Made by a program: the position numbers and the translations under genes. From positions 1 to 53,811 of IMG/VR virus record IMGVR_UViG_3300044712_000302: a stretch of 53,811 bases of DNA; one strand, written 5' to 3'. This DNA is from a virus. The stretch's first letter is position 1. Each line of letters opens with the position of its first letter. The notes beneath the pieces are model-generated. The model was not told the DNA's origin. It saw only the letters and a list, made by a program, of their open reading frames with translations, and did no database searches. Positions 2,756 through 53,234 of the stretch are shown here, piece after piece.

Positions 2756-5395
2756 TCAGAATGGCTCAGCATCGCTTTCCCAATCGTGACGCAAGCGAAT
2801 GCCGGTGTAGAGGTTCAATCGTGTGCCAGAACCCTCCGTGGCACAGGCTTCCTGACCCCTCGATGTTGTGCCAGAACCGCGTGGTTGGCTGCGTTTGACG
2901 CCCGGGAAAGCGGCCGAAAGTTGGCGGCCAAACGACACCTTGGTGCCTGCGTGATCGCGGCCCTGGGCCTCGCACCACTTCTTCCAAGCCTTGAAAAGCT
3001 CGTCGCGATCGGCTTGGGCGTGCTCGCTGACCACGCACATCTCGTCCACAAAAGCGCGGATCGGGCTGGTCTGATCGACCAGGTCTGAAGCCAGCTCGTC
3101 GGCCGAGGTGGGGCGCTGGAAGTAGCCGCGCTGGTTCAGACGGGCCAGGCCCTCAAGTGCCCACAGGACGATGCCGGGCAGCTCCTTGAGCAGGCGGGCC
3201 GTGAGGCCGTGGTCCTCCTTGCCCAGGAAGCTCGTGTTGAACTTGAAGGGCAGGAACCGGTTGGCCAGGGCGGCCGAGGCGTCCGAGAAGGCGGGCAGCT
3301 CGTTGGAGGCCAGCACGAAGCGGATGGCCATCTTGCCGGACCAGGCGGTCATGTTCTTGCGGTCGATCGTGATGGTGTCCTCGCCCGAGATCCGCAGCAA
3401 GTTTTCCACGATGGGCTGCTGGTCTGCGCGGCCGGAGAGGCGGGCGTCGGAGATCATGGCCAGGCGCTTGCCGATCAGGGGCTGCAGGCCGAACTGCGTG
3501 CCAAGCGACGCGAGGCTGGGGCTCACCCGGTTGGCGTACCCGACCAGGGCTTCGAGGATGCGCAAGATGGTGCCCTTGCCGCAGCGTGGGGGGCCGATCA
3601 GCATGAACATCTTTTGCTGGCTGGTGTCGTCGGTCAGCAGGTAGCCGAACATCTCGGCCAGGGTGCTGATGGACTCGGGGTCGTCGGGCCAGAGGCTGTG
3701 CAGGAACTTCAGCCACTCGGTCGGCGCGCTGGCGCTGGGGTCGTAGTCGAAGTCCAGGGAGGACACGCAAAACAGCCGGTCCGTCGACGGCATGATGGTG
3801 CGGGTCGGGTGGTGCAAGAAGCCGTTTTTGAAGGCCACGATCTCGTGGGCCAAGTGGTCGCCAGGCTTGGGTTCAATCCAGACTTGGGGCTCGGGCAGGT
3901 CGGCGTAGCACACCGCGCGCAGGGCGTGGGCGACGTCGTTGACCGTTGAGGTTTTCGGGTTGAAGGCCACCGTCTCGCTGTCGCCTGTCTTAGGGTTGAC
4001 TTTGAGCGTCAGGCACCCGGCCATGAAGTGGTACAGGCGCTGGTCGATGTAGACCCGGTCCCGAGTGACGTAGCGCGTGGCGTCCCAGCTGTAGAACTCG
4101 CCGCGCCAGTGGATGATGCGCCCGCGCTCGGGCAGCGTCTCGTGGAACAGCTCGGCCGTTTTCATGGGCGAGCTCGAGAAGATCATCGGCTGATCATGGC
4201 TGTCCGGCGGAATGTTGTCAGGGGCCCGGGGTGGCTCAGGGGGCGGGGGCGTGTGCCCAGCGTGGTCCGAAACGTCGGGGATGGGTGCGTCGTCGAAGTC
4301 GGGCGGCAGGTCGTCCCAGGGCGGCTCAAAATCGGATGGAAACGGGTCCGAATCGGGTGGAATCGGTTGTTTTTCTGGCGGTGGCTCATCCGGTGAGCCT
4401 GCCTTCATGATGCAGTCCTCGACGGCGGCCAGGCCGTCGGCCAGGTGCAGGTCGTTGAAGTCGGTACCGGTGCCCCGCGTTGAGACGTTCCAGACCGGGA
4501 TGGCCAGCAGCGCGTTGACGGCTTGGGCGGTCTTGCGGGCGTAGGTCAGGCCAGGGTTGCCCTCGGTTTGAGCGTCGTCGTCGGCCGCGATGATCAGGCG
4601 GGCCTCGGGTAGCGCGGCGCGAATCTTGCGGGCAACCGGCTCCAGGTTCCCGGCGTTGAAGGCAACAACCACGCAGTGCCCGGTGGCCATGCGGATGGAG
4701 CAGCAAGTGGCCCAGCCCTCGGCGATCACCACGGTGCCTTGCTTGTCGGGCTTGCCTAGCACTGTGTAAGCGCCGCCCGATGGCGTGCCTTTGAGAAACA
4801 GCTTTGTGCCGTCAGACTTGATGCGTTGGAGGCCAACCAGTGCGCCGGGGCCGTGGCGCAGCGGGATGAGCAGCTCGTCGCCCAGCATGCGGGCACCCTC
4901 GGGCTCGATCTGCTTGCGCTGAGGGTAGGGGTGGCTGGTGACCGTGGTGGCCCGAGCCCACATCTCGGCGGCGCGGGTGGCAGCGGCGTCGCGCTCTATT
5001 TTGGCCTGGGCCTCCTCGGCTGCCATGCGGGCCTCGCGCTCGGCGATGCGGCGGGCACGTTCCTCTGGGTCGACCGGCTTGCGGTCCTGGGCTGTTGATT
5101 TGTAGCCGCCCTCTTTGGCCAGGGCGATCAGGGTGCCTATGGTGGCGCGGTTGGAGCCGCCGCCGGGTTTGCAGGATTTCCAAACGTCGCGTGCGTCGCG
5201 GCTGTTGTAGTTTGAGCCCTGCTGGCTCCAGGCGTCCCACGCTTCGAAGGCGGGCTCACCGAATTCTTCTTTGAGGATGAAGGCCATCTTCACCCAGGTC
5301 TCGCGGTCATCGACGCCGCGAACGAATGAGAGCATGCGCTCCGCTGTCTCGAGGGAAATGGGGTCCCTTGGCCCTGTAGTTTTTGTTCGTTGCAT
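2756..5395 (-). CDS. Primase-helicase (PriCT, Toprim and D5-type helicase domains)
   Basis: An 879-aa replication protein expected to prime and unwind viral DNA. The N terminus (residues 10-90) resembles the PriCT-2 domain. A Toprim-like catalytic core follows, with the acidic IAEGWA motif at Glu226 and DDD at 272-274. A Pro/Asp-rich linker spans about 335-405. The C-terminal D5/SF3-type helicase has Walker A GPPRCGKGT at 601-609. The tail after residue 830 is low-complexity, and its DNA carries copies of the GTTGTGCCA repeat. It starts at 5395, downstream of a 412-bp structured gap, and stands next to VRR-NUC and SF2 helicase genes. No DNA polymerase gene is seen, so the host polymerase is probably recruited. 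Confidence 0.93.
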   Translation of the reverse strand: MQRTKTTGPRDPISLETAERMLSFVRGVDDRETWVKMAFILKEEFGEPAFEAWDAWSQQGSNYNSRDARDVWKSCKPGGGSNRATIGTLIALAKEGGYKSTAQDRKPVDPEERARRIAEREARMAAEEAQAKIERDAAATRAAEMWARATTVTSHPYPQRKQIEPEGARMLGDELLIPLRHGPGALVGLQRIKSDGTKLFLKGTPSGGAYTVLGKPDKQGTVVIAEGWATCCSIRMATGHCVVVAFNAGNLEPVARKIRAALPEARLIIAADDDAQTEGNPGLTYARKTAQAVNALLAIPVWNVSTRGTGTDFNDLHLADGLAAVEDCIMKAGSPDEPPPEKQPIPPDSDPFPSDFEPPWDDLPPDFDDAPIPDVSDHAGHTPPPPEPPRAPDNIPPDSHDQPMIFSSSPMKTAELFHETLPERGRIIHWRGEFYSWDATRYVTRDRVYIDQRLYHFMAGCLTLKVNPKTGDSETVAFNPKTSTVNDVAHALRAVCYADLPEPQVWIEPKPGDHLAHEIVAFKNGFLHHPTRTIMPSTDRLFCVSSLDFDYDPSASAPTEWLKFLHSLWPDDPESISTLAEMFGYLLTDDTSQQKMFMLIGPPRCGKGTILRILEALVGYANRVSPSLASLGTQFGLQPLIGKRLAMISDARLSGRADQQPIVENLLRISGEDTITIDRKNMTAWSGKMAIRFVLASNELPAFSDASAALANRFLPFKFNTSFLGKEDHGLTARLLKELPGIVLWALEGLARLNQRGYFQRPTSADELASDLVDQTSPIRAFVDEMCVVSEHAQADRDELFKAWKKWCEAQGRDHAGTKVSFGRQLSAAFPGVKRSQPRGSGTTSRGQEACATEGSGTRLNLYTGIRLRHDWESDAEPF

Positions 5396-5491
5396 ACCTG
5401 GCGTCTGTTGGCTGGCGAATAAAAGGTGGGGCAGCCCTCGCCAGGGTCAGGCCTTGTCACCGGTGGATCAGACCGGTCAAGCCCCGTGAAC

Positions 5492-5522
5492 AGTATAAGG
5501 GCGTGCGGGCGGAAAAACGCAA
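5492..5522 (-). promoter_or_regulatory. Candidate promoter for primase gene
   Basis: Minus strand: TTGCGT at 5522-5517 and TATACT at 5497-5492, separated by 19 bases. The -10 is good and the spacing slightly long. The -35 overlaps the heptamer GCAACAC (plus strand 5519-5525), which is also half of the palindromic operator at 10408-10430. Confidence 0.45.
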
Positions 5523-5577
5523 CACCTGCGAAAATAAATGTGCGGTTTTGCGCAACGGTTGTGGTAGCATCGTTGCT

Positions 5578-5634
5578 GACGCCAGTGCTCACGGAGTCCT
5601 GCAAGGAACTCGGCGAAACGCGGGTGCTGGCGTC
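5578..5634 (-). other. Nested inverted repeat in primase leader
   Basis: A perfect 8-bp outer stem pairs GACGCCAG (5578-5585) with CTGGCGTC (5627-5634). Inside it, 5606-5611 pairs with 5594-5599 through six pairs, including one T-G wobble that forms only in the leftward RNA, with a 6-base loop. The wobble suggests that the leftward transcript is the folded molecule. Confidence 0.5.
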
Positions 5635-5760
5635 ACATCACGCATGCGGCTTGGCATAAATGGCACACCCTGCTGGCATAAACCGACAAAACCGGGGTTC
5701 TGGCCAAGTCGGGCTAACAGGCTGCAGCCGTGATGGTGTAGTTCAAGTTTTGGAGAACAG

Positions 5761-5802
5761 CCCGTCAGTGGATGACGGGGAAATGCCGGGATCAGCACCG
5801 GC
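5761..5802. other. Two adjacent hairpins after VRR-NUC gene
   Basis: First hairpin: CCCGTCA (5761-5767) with TGACGGG (5773-5779) and a 5-base loop. Second: GCCGG (5785-5789) with CCGGC (5798-5802) and an 8-base loop. No T run follows on either strand, so these are not ordinary terminators. Confidence 0.5.
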
Positions 5803-5807
5803 CACCA

Positions 5808-6122
5808 TCAACCTCCATTCACCGCCAGCCTGGCATCCTCCACCGACCGAACGATTGCCGCCAGGGCCCCGCGCTTTTTCATCGCGGCGATGAATGCGAG
5901 CTGCTCGGGTCTGGCACGGCCCTTGGCGGTTTTCACCTCCAGATAGAACGCCCGCGCATCGCTGGCCCGGTGTCCAAACAAATCCGAGAAGCCTTTGGGC
6001 AGACCTGTTTTGACAGGCCGACCATCTTTGGTGAAAAACATCCCCACATTGGCCCTGGCCACGAAGTGCCCGTCGGTAGACAGCGCAATCATGATCTGAT
6101 GCATTAAATCAGTCTCGCTCAT
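5808..6122 (-). CDS. VRR-NUC domain nuclease
   Basis: A 104-aa stand-alone VRR-NUC protein (PD-(D/E)XK fold). Typical blocks are KGFSDLFG (catalytic Asp), FYLEVKTAKGR (E-V-K core) and PEQLAFIAAMKKRGALAAIVRS. Family members cut DNA structures and are common in phage replication operons next to SF2 helicases and D5-type primases, as here. The ATG at 6122 overlaps the stop of the upstream gene as ATGA. An upstream extension exists only because the frame is open. The substrate is not deducible. Confidence 0.9.
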   Translation of the reverse strand: MSETDLMHQIMIALSTDGHFVARANVGMFFTKDGRPVKTGLPKGFSDLFGHRASDARAFYLEVKTAKGRARPEQLAFIAAMKKRGALAAIVRSVEDARLAVNGG

Positions 6123-6394
6123 CGCCTGCCATGCTCCCAAACACGCCGCACCAAGGCCTCGAGCTCCTGGCACGCCTTCTCGCCGCGCACCTGCAGGATG
6201 CCGCGCTTGACGATCTTGCCCGCCTCCTCACGGCCGCGCAGGTACTCGCGCCGGGCGACCTTGTCGGGGATGGACAGGATGTGGCGGGCCTCGCACTCAG
6301 CACGCCAGGCCTCGCAGTAGGTGCACACCGTGGTGCCGTCGATCAACTTCACGACCTGGTCGGTTTCCAGGCGGTTGCAACCAGCGCAGCTCAT
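6119..6394 (-). CDS. Zinc-ribbon-like small protein in replication operon
   Basis: A 91-aa protein starting with a Cys pair (CAGC, residues 3-6) and a second pair (CTYC, about 25-28) that together look like a zinc ribbon. A basic helical stretch follows (WRAECEARHIL, RREYLRGREEAGKIVKRG). The pattern is common in Burkholderiales phages at this position. It overlaps both neighbours by ATGA, between the SF2 helicase and VRR-NUC genes, so a role in replication is plausible, but the function is unknown. Confidence 0.8.
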   Translation of the reverse strand: MSCAGCNRLETDQVVKLIDGTTVCTYCEAWRAECEARHILSIPDKVARREYLRGREEAGKIVKRGILQVRGEKACQELEALVRRVWEHGRR

Positions 6395-7812
6395 CGCTTC
6401 TGGGCCTCCTTGGCGGCGCGGGCGCGGAGCACGTGGCGCGCCCAAAGCTCGGGGCGTTTCATGCCCCGGGCGCGGCCGATGCGAATGAGGTCGGCCTCGG
6501 TCTGCGACCTGCCCTGCTCCATCTTGCGCTCCTTGACCGCCTGGGCCTTGGCGGCGGCAGCGGTGATCTCCTCAAGTTGCCCATCCACTTCTTCGATCTC
6601 GCGGCCAACGGGCTCGAAGTGGTGGCCACAAGCGCAGTCGGTGACGATGGAAGGCACAGTGGCAAAGCACACGGGACAGGTTTTCACCGGCACCTCGGAC
6701 TTCTTGGAGTTTTTGCGCTTTTCGACGGCGGCCAGGGTCCACTCGCGCAGGTCGGTGGGCAGCCCATGGCGCTTCACGTTGCCCGCGTGGTCGAGGATGA
6801 TGCAGTCGTCCTTGCCAGGGTGTGTGCGCAGGCCACGGCCAACGGATTGCAGGTACTTCACGACCGACTGCGTAGGCGCGAGCTGGATGATGCAGCCGAT
6901 GGATGGCGCGTCCACACCGGCCACCCACAGGGCGCAGTTGCAGACCACATCCAGGACGCCGTCGCGCAGGCCTTGCAGGGCAGCGTCGCGCTCAACGGTG
7001 TCGGACTCGCCGCTGATGGCCACGGCCCGGTACCCGGCCTGGCGAAACTGCTCGGCCACGTTGGTCGCGTGCTCCACGGTCACGCAAAACGCCACGGCCG
7101 GGCGACCATCGGCCAGCTTGCGGTAGTGCTGCACGGCGCTGCCGGTAATGACAGGCTTGTCCATGGCGGCGGCCAGCTCGCCCTGGTTGAAGTCGCCCAT
7201 GCTGGTGTGCACACCGGACAGGTCCGGCTCGCTGGGCGCGTAGTAGCGGATGGGAGCGAGCAGCCCCTCGTCGATCAGGTCCTGCGTGCTGCAGGTGGGC
7301 ACCAGGATGTCAGCGACCTCGTTCATGCCTCGGCCGTCCAGGCGGCAGGGTGTGGCCGTGAGGTGCAGCAGGTGCGCGCCGCCGGGTCGTTTGAACTTCG
7401 GGCCTGCGCCAGCCCACTCGAAAATCTGCTGGTAGGTGTTGGCCACGGCCAGGTGCGCCTCGTCCACGATGATGAGGTCCGGTGGCTGGTACCGGTCCAG
7501 GCGGCGCACCAGGGTCTGCACCATGGCCACCTGCACGGGCAGGCGGTGGTTGCCGTCGCGGCCCGCTGCGATCCAGCCGTAGGGGATGCCCGCATCGGTC
7601 AGGCGGTTGCTAGTGTCGTTCAGGATTTCCTTGAGGTGCGCGATGAACCACACGCGCTTGCCTTTGTCGAGTGCGTTTTGGATCATGCAGATCGCGGTTG
7701 CGCTCTTGCCAAAACCGGTCGGGGCAATCATGACCGGAGCCTTAAATCCACGGCGGTAGGCCGCACGCAAATCCTCGATGGCTTTTGCTTGTCGGGGGCG
7801 AGGTGTGATCAT
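6391..7812 (-). CDS. DEAH-box superfamily 2 helicase
   Basis: A 473-aa SF2 helicase with Q-motif-like PRPRQAKAI (5-13), Walker A APTGFGKS (30-37), DEAH (117-120), TAT motif III (152-154) and motif VI QSVGRGLR (322-329). A four-Cys cluster (Cys379, 382, 393, 395) follows the helicase core, then a coiled, basic C terminus. Such phage helicases probably unwind replication or recombination intermediates. The start at 7812 overlaps the upstream stop as ATGA; the 42 codons upstream in the open frame read like a shadow of the preceding gene. The neighbouring VRR-NUC and primase genes indicate a replication module. Confidence 0.93.
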   Translation of the reverse strand: MITPRPRQAKAIEDLRAAYRRGFKAPVMIAPTGFGKSATAICMIQNALDKGKRVWFIAHLKEILNDTSNRLTDAGIPYGWIAAGRDGNHRLPVQVAMVQTLVRRLDRYQPPDLIIVDEAHLAVANTYQQIFEWAGAGPKFKRPGGAHLLHLTATPCRLDGRGMNEVADILVPTCSTQDLIDEGLLAPIRYYAPSEPDLSGVHTSMGDFNQGELAAAMDKPVITGSAVQHYRKLADGRPAVAFCVTVEHATNVAEQFRQAGYRAVAISGESDTVERDAALQGLRDGVLDVVCNCALWVAGVDAPSIGCIIQLAPTQSVVKYLQSVGRGLRTHPGKDDCIILDHAGNVKRHGLPTDLREWTLAAVEKRKNSKKSEVPVKTCPVCFATVPSIVTDCACGHHFEPVGREIEEVDGQLEEITAAAAKAQAVKERKMEQGRSQTEADLIRIGRARGMKRPELWARHVLRARAAKEAQKR

Positions 7813-8042
7813 CGCTTCCCCGGCAACGGCTGCCGCTCCACAAAATAGCGCCCCGTGCTGTTTATGAACTTGGCGTTTAATCCTCGCTCGGCAAGCAAAT
7901 GCTCGAAGGTCTCGTTGTGCGGAATGTGCGCCATCCAAACGGCGGCGATCTCGTTGGGCTGGCCGGTCGTTGCGATGCGGTTCAGGAAATCAAGGACCTC
8001 AGCGTAGGCGCGGTTTTCGAGGGCGGGTTTGAGGTCAATCAT
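7809..8042 (-). CDS. Hypothetical protein
   Basis: A 77-aa protein beginning MIDLKPALENRAYAEVLDFL, mostly helical, with a basic C terminus ending PLPGKR. It overlaps both neighbours by ATGA. The following gene product also ends in QPGKR, probably because the same overlap and ribosome-site sequence is read in both. No domain recognised. Confidence 0.75.
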   Translation of the reverse strand: MIDLKPALENRAYAEVLDFLNRIATTGQPNEIAAVWMAHIPHNETFEHLLAERGLNAKFINSTGRYFVERQPLPGKR

Positions 8043-33149: not shown

Positions 33150-35048
33150 TCAGTTTGATTCGAGTGCCGCGACACGGGCGGTCAGGGTTTGGATGATGGC
33201 TTGCTGTTCTTGGATGGCGGCAGTCAACGTTGCAACCAAGAAACTGGTGTCGATGCCCTGGTACTGTGGGTTGCCTTCGGCATCCACTGCGTCCTTCTCG
33301 CCTGTCACAGCAGCAGGGCAGACTTCGGCCAGTTCGTGAGCAATGAAGCCCTCTCCATCGGAGCCGTCAGACTTCCATTTGTACGTCACCGGCTTAAGGG
33401 CTGCGACCTTAGCCAGCGCACCAGTCATGGGCTGGACGTTCTCTTTCAGGCGGTAATCGGATGATGTGTTGTACGCAACAGCGGTGGTTCCGTTTTGAGT
33501 AATGCCCCCAATTGCTCCGCCGTTGTAAGCGAAGAAAGTGTACGCAGAGCCTGACACTGTACCGTTAGCGTGGTTGACAACAACAACACCGCCGGGGCCA
33601 TTCTTTTGCAGAGCAACCGAATCGCTATTTGTCAAACCAGCACTCGTCGTCCCCACCAGCAGATTCCCGCTGCTGTCGATGCGGGCGCGTTCTGTGCCGC
33701 CTGTCGAAATTGCTACGTTGTTTGTACCGACACCGTAGATGCCGTTGTTGAAGTTTCCGACTGTTCCGGTAAAGAAGATGCCGCTTGTCGATTGGGTGTA
33801 AATGTTTCCCGCAAGAAAATTAACGTTACCAGAGGAGTCGATGAGAGTGCGAGCTGTACCGTCGTTGTTGGAGAATACAAGTGATGGTGCTGCGGAGTCT
33901 GTTGCCCCTATGTAATACCCTTGACCGACCTGCGCTCTCGTATTGTTGTAAGCAACGTGAACGGCGTAAACCGAATCATTGGAGCCGAAGTAAGAACGCC
34001 CGCCCGCAACTTGAAGCCTTGCGTTGCTTGCAAAGGAGGTGGTTCCGAGGCCAAGGTTTCCGGAGTCGGTCAATGCCAGACGCACAGTTGATGTCGCGTT
34101 ATCGATAAACGCCAATATCTTGTCATCAACAGCGGCGGCATCAACAGCAATCTTCCATGTCTGTGTGCTGTTCCTGTTAAGCAACGCAAGCGCAGTTGGA
34201 TTGCTTGCGCTTTCTTGCAAAGTGAGTTTAGTGCCCGATACAGGCGAACTCGTCCCAATACCCAGACCTGTGGAGGTCAGGCGCATTTGTTCGGTGTTGT
34301 TGACCGTGAACAGAATGGGCTGATTGCTCAGTGTGGCAAAGTCAAGCAAATACGCAGACGAGGTAACTCTGGAATACGAAATGTCGGGGCGAGATTCAAG
34401 TGTGGCAATGTTTGATGTTGTTACCGCTTCTAAAATGGTCTGTCCAGACGTTCCTCTGGATGTAACCTTTGCACCACCGATTGCGCTAACTTGCAGCGTA
34501 TTCGTCCCATCAAACGTCAGCGCACTCCCCGTGGTCAGTACTTTGGAGCCGTTCAAATACGCGACCCCGTTTGCTGTGCCGCCCGAGAGCGTTACAGCAT
34601 TCGAGACAGTCAGCGCGTTGGCGGTCAGCGTGGTGCCGTCAAACGTGAGGTTTGCGCTGTCTTGCAGCAGGCCGCCGGTGCCTGCGTAGGTCACGCGGCC
34701 AGAGGTCAGGCCGGAAAACGTGATCGAGCCCGACGAGGTCAGTCCGGTGAGTCCGGTGAGCACGCCCGCGTCGCTGAGAACACCCACCGAGTTTTGCACC
34801 AGCTTGCCCGTGGTGCCATCGAAACGCACCAGTGCGTTGTCGGTCGAGCTGCCTGGGCCGACCACATCACCAGCGGAGCCAGCGGCCGTTGCCAGCACGC
34901 GAACCACGCCGCCGTTGTCCTTGTAGAACAGCTTGCCGTCGGTAATGTTCACGGCCAGCTCGCCAGCGGCCAGGTTGCCTGCCGATGGGGTCGCCGCAGC
35001 GGTGGTGCTGTAGTACAACTGGATGGGTGTGTAGCCTGCCTGAGACAT
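33150..35048 (-). CDS. Tail fibre with C-terminal peptidase S74 chaperone domain
   Basis: A 632-aa fibre. Residues 1-40 resemble the conserved attachment end (PIQLYYSTTAAATPSAGNLA). The middle is beta-repeat material (DSSGNL, GGTERARIDSSGNLLVG repeats). Residues about 530-632 form an intramolecular chaperone: SDYRLKENV (Ser/Lys of the autocleavage site), PVTYKW, GFIAHEL and a final coiled coil. The domain trimerises the fibre then cuts itself off. Bases about 33450-34450 are more AT-rich than neighbours, suggesting recent exchange of the host-recognition part. Confidence 0.9.
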   Translation of the reverse strand: MSQAGYTPIQLYYSTTAAATPSAGNLAAGELAVNITDGKLFYKDNGGVVRVLATAAGSAGDVVGPGSSTDNALVRFDGTTGKLVQNSVGVLSDAGVLTGLTGLTSSGSITFSGLTSGRVTYAGTGGLLQDSANLTFDGTTLTANALTVSNAVTLSGGTANGVAYLNGSKVLTTGSALTFDGTNTLQVSAIGGAKVTSRGTSGQTILEAVTTSNIATLESRPDISYSRVTSSAYLLDFATLSNQPILFTVNNTEQMRLTSTGLGIGTSSPVSGTKLTLQESASNPTALALLNRNSTQTWKIAVDAAAVDDKILAFIDNATSTVRLALTDSGNLGLGTTSFASNARLQVAGGRSYFGSNDSVYAVHVAYNNTRAQVGQGYYIGATDSAAPSLVFSNNDGTARTLIDSSGNVNFLAGNIYTQSTSGIFFTGTVGNFNNGIYGVGTNNVAISTGGTERARIDSSGNLLVGTTSAGLTNSDSVALQKNGPGGVVVVNHANGTVSGSAYTFFAYNGGAIGGITQNGTTAVAYNTSSDYRLKENVQPMTGALAKVAALKPVTYKWKSDGSDGEGFIAHELAEVCPAAVTGEKDAVDAEGNPQYQGIDTSFLVATLTAAIQEQQAIIQTLTARVAALESN

Positions 35049-51494: not shown

Positions 51495-51664
51495 TTCGAC
51501 CTCCGCGCGGCGCGCATGTTGTCGACCAGGTTGGGGTAAGGTCGTCCGGCCTTCTCGGCTGCGCGCTTGGCGCTGGACTTGGCGCTGGGGGAGAGAGCCT
51601 TGGGAGCGCCCAGGGAGGTGGGGCGCTTCTTGTCCCAGATGGGCTTGGGTGGCTTAGACGGCAT
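51491..51664 (-). CDS. Small basic protein after large terminase
   Basis: A 57-aa, Lys/Arg/Pro-rich protein, MPSKPPKPIWDKKRPTSL, ending in RPYPNLVDNMRAARRSK, a pattern common next to phage terminases. The ATG at 51664 lies 11 bases inside the terminase end; an in-frame TTG at 51709 is unlikely. Probably structural or DNA-associated. Confidence 0.72.
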   Translation of the reverse strand: MPSKPPKPIWDKKRPTSLGAPKALSPSAKSSAKRAAEKAGRPYPNLVDNMRAARRSK

Positions 51665-53234
51665 ACGGGTTGACCTTTCCTTCACGACGATGGGGCCGAT
51701 CTTCGTCAACGTCGCGTGCCTGTGGCAGCTCGAACCAGCCGTCGTTCTTCAGGTAGATGACCGCCTGCGTGAAGGTGTCCACGTAGTCGTCATGTTCCGC
51801 GACGGGGAACTTCGCCACTTGGGTCAGGAACGGCTGGGCCCAGCTCACAGGCTGGCCGGGGTTCTTGGCAGACTCCGGGATCCACAGCAGTCCAAGCTCC
51901 AACGTCGGCGCGGTCTGGTGCGCCCTCGACACCTTGTCCGCTTGGCCCGGATTGTAGCCAACGGCCGGCACCTTGGCCAGACGCAGGTCCTGCAGCAGCG
52001 ATTGGCCACTGGCCTTGGCCTCGACCAGGATGCGGTCGGGCTTCCTTCCCTTGGTCGGCATCCCAGCCTTGGCCGACTTGTCCGCCCCGTACTCGCTGGT
52101 CCAGTCGCGGATCACCTTGGAGCGCAGGTCGGGGTAGCCCAGGTGCTCGTCCCAGGCGTCGAGCAGCATGGCGTTGCGCAGGCCTCGGTGCGTGAACACG
52201 CCCCAGACCGTGCAGGCCGTCGGGTCGCCCGTGGTCCGCTCGGTGAAGGCGCAGTCGTAGCTTTGCAGGATGTACTCAAAGGGCGGCAGGCGCTGGGCCA
52301 CCGGCCAGAGGTTGAAGCAGTCGGCCTTCAGGATGCCGCCCTCGGCGGGCGACGGCTCTTGCTGCAGCTGGCCAGCGGTGCCGTAGGTGCCCAGCAGCTG
52401 CTTGAGCTTGGTGATCTCGGCCTCGCCGAAGCGGTCGGGGCAGATCAGCTCGCCCTTGGTGCGGCGCGGGTCGTAGGGCCCGAGCACCGTCCTGCGCTGT
52501 TTGCCGTCCCACTCGGCCGGGATGCAGATGTGCTCCCAGCCTTTGATGTCGTTGAGGATGTGCCCGCTGATGTCCTTCTCGTGCAGGCGCTGCATGACCG
52601 TCACCATGGCGTCGGTCTTGGGGTTGTTCAGACGCGTGGACCAAACCATGTCGAACCACTCGAGCGCGCTCTCGCGCATGGTCTCGGACTGCGCGTCCTG
52701 TGCGCCGTGCGGGTCGTCCAGGATCAGGCGCGAGCCGCCCTCACCGGTTGCGGTACCGCCCACCGAGGTGGCCAGCCGGTAGCCGGTCTTGTTGTTCTCG
52801 AATCGCTGCTTGGCGTTTTGGTCCCCGGCCAGCTGGAACATGTGCCCCCAGCGCTCCTGGTACCAGGGCGACTGGATCAGCCGCCGGGCCTTGAGGTTGT
52901 CTCGGATGGACAGCGTGCCGGAGTAGGACGCGGCGAGGAACTTCTGCTCGGGCGAGGTCAGCCACTCCCAGCAGCACCAAGCCACCGAAACGATGGTGGA
53001 CTTGGAGTGGCGCGGCGGGATGTTGATGAGCAGGCGCTGAATCTCGCCGAAGCTGACGGCCTCCAGGTGCTCGCAGATCAGCTCGATGTGCCAGCTGGGC
53101 ACAAACGGGACGCCGGGCTCCATGACGTGCCAAGCCTGTTTGACGAACTCGTACAGGCTGGCGCTGGCGCGGCGGCGGTCCTGTTCCTTGGCGATCAGGT
53201 CCAGCATGACGGCGGGGGAGACGGGTGCGTTCAT
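51654..53234 (-). CDS. terL: Terminase large subunit
   Basis: A 526-aa packaging motor with ATPase and nuclease domains. Walker A is PPRHSKS (73-79) and Walker B LILDD (170-174). The nuclease domain has Asp327 in SYDCAF, Glu405 in VEAKASG and HDDYVD (481-486). Together these translocate DNA into the prohead and cut the concatemer. Size is normal. TGA/ATG overlap with the gene upstream. Packaging mode cannot be read from motifs alone. Confidence 0.95.
   Translation of the reverse strand: MNAPVSPAVMLDLIAKEQDRRRASASLYEFVKQAWHVMEPGVPFVPSWHIELICEHLEAVSFGEIQRLLINIPPRHSKSTIVSVAWCCWEWLTSPEQKFLAASYSGTLSIRDNLKARRLIQSPWYQERWGHMFQLAGDQNAKQRFENNKTGYRLATSVGGTATGEGGSRLILDDPHGAQDAQSETMRESALEWFDMVWSTRLNNPKTDAMVTVMQRLHEKDISGHILNDIKGWEHICIPAEWDGKQRRTVLGPYDPRRTKGELICPDRFGEAEITKLKQLLGTYGTAGQLQQEPSPAEGGILKADCFNLWPVAQRLPPFEYILQSYDCAFTERTTGDPTACTVWGVFTHRGLRNAMLLDAWDEHLGYPDLRSKVIRDWTSEYGADKSAKAGMPTKGRKPDRILVEAKASGQSLLQDLRLAKVPAVGYNPGQADKVSRAHQTAPTLELGLLWIPESAKNPGQPVSWAQPFLTQVAKFPVAEHDDYVDTFTQAVIYLKNDGWFELPQARDVDEDRPHRREGKVNPYAV

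Follow-up and report, generated by a model that had tools for sequence, protein, structure and literature searches.

The DNA analysed here, an IMG/VR virus record of 53,811 bases referred to below as the window, contains a 412-bp gap bounded by the ATG of a primase gene at 5395 and the stop codon of a VRR-NUC nuclease gene at 5808, both of which are read leftward. No DNA match to positions 4800-6600 was found in INPHARED, where all primase relatives fall below 60% identity. Related-primase loci were taken from IMG/VR (46 loci), and in 23 of them the VRR-NUC gene is present together with the start of the primase; the gap measures 155-901 bp in these 23, and adding the window and removing two identical sequences left 22 distinct homologous gaps. 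Approximately 170 bp adjoining the primase is conserved among these relatives, and the remainder of the gap is modular. Elsewhere in the window lie genes for a terminase large subunit (51654-53234), a tail fibre (33150-35048) and a DEAD helicase (6391-7938), and in the related locus L026 (3831 and 5001-6416) strong matches cover the N-terminus of the primase and its residues 404-879 but not the middle, which suggests that the middle has been swapped.

The gap consists of two back-to-back features, a minus-strand primase promoter and leader (5396-5497) and a set of plus-strand RNA modules (approximately 5562-5810), made up as follows.

2756-5395, minus strand: primase-helicase gene with PriCT_2, Toprim_3, D5_N and DUF5906 domains (Pfam, translation)
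5396-5491, minus strand: primase 5' leader of ∼96 nt with a compensated hairpin (alignment A2, 16 distinct leaders)
5492-5522, minus strand: leftward primase promoter, -10 TATACT at 5492-5497 and -35-like TTGCGT at 5517-5522, spacing 19 (comparison of relatives)
5548-5555, no strand assigned: TTGCGCAA palindrome, in the upstream portion of the region of the rightward promoter (replaced in several relatives)
5562-5570, plus strand: putative extended -10 TGGTAGCAT serving the rightward RNA array (comparison of gaps)
5577-5635, plus strand: element A, a 59-nt hairpin RNA with a long stem and three G.U pairs (8 loci, covarying stem; z -4.2)
5636-5736, plus strand: element B, comprising CATCACG, CATG, a 7-bp covarying inner stem, a hypervariable loop, CAGC and CGTGATGG (48 sequences; model R1, E 3.5e-20)
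5731-5810, plus strand: element C', a cloverleaf, tRNA-shaped RNA overlapping the VRR-NUC stop (MFE fold, z -4.0)
5808-6122, minus strand: VRR-NUC nuclease gene, the upstream neighbour, in an ORF open to 6173 (Pfam, ORF)

The primase promoter, its leader and the proposed rightward array

The promoter that a first-pass annotation of this DNA had placed in the gap is found as a leftward -10 element, TATACT, seen in all 22 gaps examined; a strict sigma-70 scan of the region returned zero promoters, and the call therefore rests on the comparison of relatives. Downstream of it, one hairpin of the leader (ACCGGT..ACCGGT in the window) carries 12 double-change cells across 16 distinct leaders, compared with 2.8 in shuffles (0/500), while CCTGGC and GCCAGG, which might pair at the start codon, are invariant, so that covariation neither supports nor excludes this pairing. 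The earlier proposal of a regulatory leader accordingly finds support only in the ∼96 bp beside the primase. Folding of the whole region beats chance on both strands (z -2.5 minus, -1.8 plus), and A, B and C' folded singly give z -3.0 to -5.3.

Rightward, the TTGCGCAA palindrome is present as first reported, and TGGTAGCAT is followed after 7 nt by the first of the three RNA modules of the window, A, B and C'. The motif TGGTANNAT occurs once per gap in 18/18 module-bearing gaps and in 0/4 module-free gaps, such that modules and -10 are both present in 18 of the 22 distinct homologous gaps and both missing in four. It lies 6-7 nt upstream of the first element in the 14 gaps in which that element was assigned, and this applies to gaps that open with a tRNA-like sequence as well as to those that open with element A. 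Judged from sequence, this placement fits an extended -10 that would give a leaderless RNA. The modules themselves are swapped between close relatives, at times for real tRNAs: between the window and L003 the modules are exchanged and the flanks kept, whereas between the window and L037 B and C' show zero differences and the rest of the gap 23. In 7 of the 29 loci scanned, ARAGORN recognises tRNA-Met, tRNA-Tyr or tRNA-Thr in the position of the array and on its strand.

Element A, which contains a hairpin already noted in the gap (a 9-bp perfect stem, 5577-5585/5627-5635), was found in eight loci, all belonging to the phage group of the window. Its stem occurs in the compensated variants GACGCCA/TGGCGTC, GACGCTA/TAGCGTC and GACACGC/GCGTGTC and is partly broken in L037. 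Several further sequences recur among the loci. A block of approximately CAATC.TTAACTGYRGTGRCGGGCGSAGAAA near the arrays of L072, L097 and L023 resembles a further RNA family; a 3' end similar to GACACCCCGGAGAGACGGGGACCA, consisting of a small hairpin often followed by ACCA and resembling a processed-RNA end, is present in L006, L023, L031, L046, L076 and L110; and a GTCAGCAAGGTATTCCGATTCCTTGTAAACAAATTCGGCGCACTG-like block, possibly another family, lies 5' of the B-like hairpin of Enterobacteria loci (L107 at about 1850-1920, L108, and L113 at 1310-1370).

Elements B and C beyond the window

Element B was sought in IMG/VR with an exact two-end pattern allowing 25-86 free bases between the ends, which matched 21 plus 38 stretches extending far beyond the primase relatives. 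The resulting alignment (A3) comprises 47 sequences from viral contigs and one (L103) from a bacterial genome contig, all 48 of them distinct. Because the search pattern dictated the outer arms, these are invariant in the alignment by construction; across the 48 sequences 97.4% of cells are paired, with 74 double-change cells against 19.2 in shuffles (0/500), and at the first position of the inner stem alone 23 sequences have C-G and 21 have G-C. The outer stem is itself changed on both sides in L209 (CAACACG/CGTGTTG around the same CATG core) and, by eye, in Burkholderia phage CSP3 (CTTCACA/TGTGAGG). In the first six inner pairs G.T outnumbers A.C by 32 to 4, which favours a plus-strand RNA, although 28 of the 32 wobbles fall at one position. 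The first-pass annotation had described a wobble pair forming only in the leftward RNA; for A and B the reverse was found, their G.U pairs forming only in the rightward, plus-strand RNA. Two of its three TGGCATAAA-like repeats are exact copies (5652 and 5674), both within the hypervariable interior of B, and the third (5661) has three mismatches.

The window carries one B, and B is missing from four of the six related 54-56 kb records searched whole (G001, G002, G003 and G005) and is thus accessory. Bacterial genome contigs yielded four matches to the B pattern, of which only L103 was retained. The others, L104-L106, are chance matches that lack the inner stem and apparently lie in coding sequence, which we take to be TadA-like and LexA-like, yet they still reach 31-35 bits with model R1; with three of the four matches due to chance, a spread of B across bacterial phyla was dropped. 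Model R1 finds no match to the B-like hairpins of Enterobacteria loci, CSP3 or AP1, which are therefore linked to B by architecture only. In L079 (6080-6158), L080, L090, L092 and L096 the outer stem of B is extended (CCCATCACG/CGTGATGGG) with TTTTTC directly 3', and in these loci B may double as an intrinsic terminator. T-loop-like motifs occur in 5/48 B interiors, against 0.3 in shuffles (L055 at 397-497, L091 at 4425-4525, L069, L071 and L093), and the interiors of L055 and L091 resemble a tRNA body.

The third module of the window, C', contains the nested inverted repeat reported before, whose outer stem is perfect over 8 bp (5731-5738/5803-5810), and is predicted to fold into an 8-bp acceptor, UA, a D-like arm of 4 bp, a 7-bp arm closed by a loop of 5 nt and a T-like arm of 5 bp. 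The anticodon position is thus occupied by a 5-nt rather than a 7-nt loop, and the T-like loop is GATCAGCA rather than TTCRANY. Its match to R2, the model of family C, is weak (27.7 bits, E 1.4e-4), which makes it a divergent member or a hybrid. In family C the first strand of a 7-bp acceptor-like stem is followed by AA, by a D-like arm whose loop is GGCTGA, by a variable segment, by a 5-bp T-like arm whose loop is AGATCAGCA and by the second acceptor strand, the acceptor being stacked on the T-like arm in the predicted shape; the variable insert replaces the anticodon arm, and the two loops are complementary (GCTGA/TCAGC), although both were part of the search motif and their pairing therefore falls outside the covariation test.

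The first set of C sequences required at least six of seven acceptor pairs, which biased its covariation, and 4/28 rows were dropped as false; an earlier motif-anchored set gave 22/23 fully paired copies, against 15/364 in the swap control. The fairest test came from scanning IMG/VR with the 19-nt D-like arm alone, which matched at least 120 stretches, with 80 loci listed and 78 of these new. Among the new loci listed were 58 distinct copies with the T-like arm motif and 19 of 77 without it. The acceptor is fully paired (7/7) in 48 of these 58 listed copies and paired at 6/7 in seven, with 26 different acceptor sequences and three copies that pair poorly, and swapping partners between listed copies with different acceptors restores 7/7 pairing in only 82/3016 cases. 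The strand signal is not decisive for C, G.T against A.C being 9 to 4 in the 55 well-paired listed rows and 10 to 7 in all 58. CCA is usually unencoded at C, and a CCA-like discriminator was rejected, since an A follows the acceptor in only 28/58 listed copies of this unbiased set, compared with 19/24 in the first, biased one.

Where B precedes C, the 3' outer arm of B overlaps the 5' acceptor strand of C (5732-5736 in the window), so that the two folds exclude each other. By eye, the three strands covary by lineage (CATCACG/CGTGATGGTG/CACCATC, CACAAC/GTTGTGGTG/CACCACAAC and CAACACG/CGTGTTGGTG/CACCAAC), and because they change together a built-in switch was considered. An exact 7-mer partner forming a B-like hairpin lies upstream of only 6/54 listed C copies (control 0.7%), which argues that B and C are separate modules and that the overlap applies to a minority. 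A general role of the shared strand in UGG-CCA pairing was discarded, several C acceptors being without TGG.

A short query spanning the B/C junction matched 106/50,697 INPHARED records at E <= 0.01 and 35/5,426 E. coli genomes, and C occurs in HK620, in BASEL phages Bas77-80 and in phages of Pseudomonas, Burkholderia and Acidovorax. The loci read include Bas80, beside tRNA-Met, the Gamaleyavirus IME11, HK620 between qut and tQ, a prophage of E. coli ET776 between Q and holin, plasmid pBVIE05, PMG1, CSP3 and AP1. Model R2 finds C in 10/10 such loci fetched, by construction in L107-L114, which belong to alignment A6, and independently in L133 and L134. The feature tables of the loci read carry no RNA annotation at C, and hypothetical ORFs overlie it in some. 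Across the 48 B loci, the stretches within 400 bp of B make up 9.6% of the sequence and contain all eight ARAGORN tRNAs, each on the strand of B; across the 78 listed C loci, the stretches within 600 bp of C make up 12.6% of the sequence and contain 13 of 21 tRNAs, 13/13 on the strand of C, a recognised tRNA being nearby in only 8/78. By sequence comparison, B and C are predicted phage RNA families that turn up repeatedly, in many unrelated phages, within arrays that also bear tRNAs. The first suggestion of an uncharacterised structured RNA is supported, with two changes: the structures read from the strand that does not encode the primase, and they form three separate modules belonging to wider families.

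Interpretation and rival readings

We consider it probable, at roughly 70%, that the gap combines a primase promoter and leader with a divergent, rightward cassette array of putative tRNA-shaped noncoding RNAs. The basis of this array reading is the observed structures, covariation, strand, modularity and spread. Transcription would start from the array's own extended -10, within a few bases of the promoter, and the machinery that processes tRNAs would cleave the polycistronic transcript to release the tRNA-shaped RNAs. As to function, these RNAs might occupy, decoy or divert host enzymes that act on tRNA, including tRNA-cutting defences, and an arms race with the host may lie behind the hypervariable interiors and rapid swapping of modules. 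The tRNA shape and company, the fast exchange of modules beside steady genes and the conserved scaffolds around hypervariable interiors make decoys or competitors for host tRNA-acting enzymes our leading guess, albeit a tentative one. More speculative still is a general form of this idea, in which many phages of Gammaproteobacteria and Burkholderiales, including the lambdoid HK620, would share an unrecognised class of anticodon-less tRNA mimics that have a Watson-Crick elbow between D- and T-like loops, are processed by the host and shield the phage by occupying tRNA-cutting defence enzymes or other tRNA-binding proteins, the strand shared by B and C acting as a processing switch where B precedes C. 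If the array reading is right, well-studied phages and prophages hold overlooked tRNA-shaped RNAs in stretches considered empty or assigned to hypothetical ORFs, which would account for hypervariable noncoding gaps annotated only with stray tRNAs. The presence of C in the laboratory phages HK620 and Bas77-80 makes transcription, processing and a role against tRNA-targeting defences directly testable.

The reading of the region as a phage replication origin, with TGGCATAAA iterons and with hairpins serving as initiator or primase sites, draws on the adjoining primase and on a detrended cumulative GC-skew maximum that falls in the gap in 5/7 genomes, one of them module-free. The primase gene carries most of this signal, however, contributing +131 to +208 net G-C on its own, and masking it leaves only 3/7 genomes with their maximum in the gap, a result that lends the modules no support as an origin; a skew maximum is, moreover, more usual for a terminus than for an origin. 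The repeats sit in the variable loop of B and are lost where its interior changes, and the modules are dispensable, being absent from four of the 22 distinct gaps. The first-pass proposal of an origin was therefore abandoned for 5571-5807, an origin in the conserved part (5396-5570) is possible but weak, and we regard an origin reading of the region as quite unlikely. Less probable again is that the regulatory leader of the primase mRNA, read leftward, takes in the whole region: the leftward promoter and the compensated hairpin leader are conserved, but A and B make their G.U pairs on the opposite strand, the tRNAs of the gap lie on that strand too, and the leftward promoter is downstream of A, B and C', which places the modules outside the primase leader barring read-through.

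Two other readings accept the modules and deny them an RNA function, and both appear unlikely to us, to a similar degree. The modules could be mobile cassettes at the DNA level, attC-like hairpin recombination sites or selfish inverted repeats with shared ends CCATCA...TGATGG and incidental RNA, as the rapid swapping between close relatives, the conserved ends around hypervariable interiors and the arm common to adjacent modules would suggest; against this stand the one-strand G.U excess in B, the 21/21 nearby tRNAs on the element strand (eight for B, 13 for the listed C loci) and the position of the -10 only 6-7 nt before the first element. Alternatively, they could be degenerate tRNA genes, functionless and in decay within an accessory site that is hypervariable. 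The cloverleaf of C' without a normal anticodon or T loop, the partly broken stem of A in L037 and the T-loop-like motifs in B interiors agree with decay, whereas the compensatory changes of B and C across many phages would be unexpected under it, and B and C' have stayed identical between the window and L037 beside 23 changes elsewhere in the gap.

Comparison with known systems

At the gathering score, Rfam returned only tRNA matches for the window and 13 + 6 loci, with no riboswitch, GOLLD or ROOL, and at loose E-values it gave only tRNA or sub-threshold matches for the gap, HK620 and one E. coli locus; A, B and C' of the window received no tRNA call from Rfam or ARAGORN. Family C and C' resemble tRNA (RF00005) in their acceptor, D-like and T-like arms and share arrays and strand with tRNAs, but in C an insert stands where a tRNA has its anticodon arm, and loops with Watson-Crick complementarity (GCTGA/TCAGC) replace the D- and T-loop signatures. 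Integron attC sites also have paired conserved ends, a variable terminal structure and cassette behaviour, with a core of GTTRRRY/RYYYAAC. Element B shares the paired conserved ends, the variable terminal structure and the cassette behaviour, although its canonical ends, CATCACG/CGTGATGG in the 48 B sequences, do not fit that core and its strand-specific G.U pairing points to RNA.

Among mostly openly readable papers and a few preprints, consulted in part, no published description of elements A, B or C was found, nor do the available portions of PMC4104026, PMC13192938, PMC12286853 and PMC11990801 contain one. The lambdoid late-region small RNAs EcOnc01-03 and AgvB are described as prophage RNAs downstream of Q and PR', EcOnc01-03 being 51-60 nt long, recovered with Hfq, sharing 3' regions of ∼42 nt and arising from convergent genes (PMC4104026). 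The C element of HK620 likewise lies in the late region, between qut and tQ, a likeness drawn by description only. GOLLD and ROOL are noncoding RNAs of phages and prophages that are structured, frequently neighbour tRNAs and have an unknown function; they assemble nanocages, and many GOLLD RNAs exceed 800 nt (PMC12286853). The predicted RNAs described here are likewise structured, noncoding, carried by phages and found near tRNAs, but A, B and C span only 56-214 nt.
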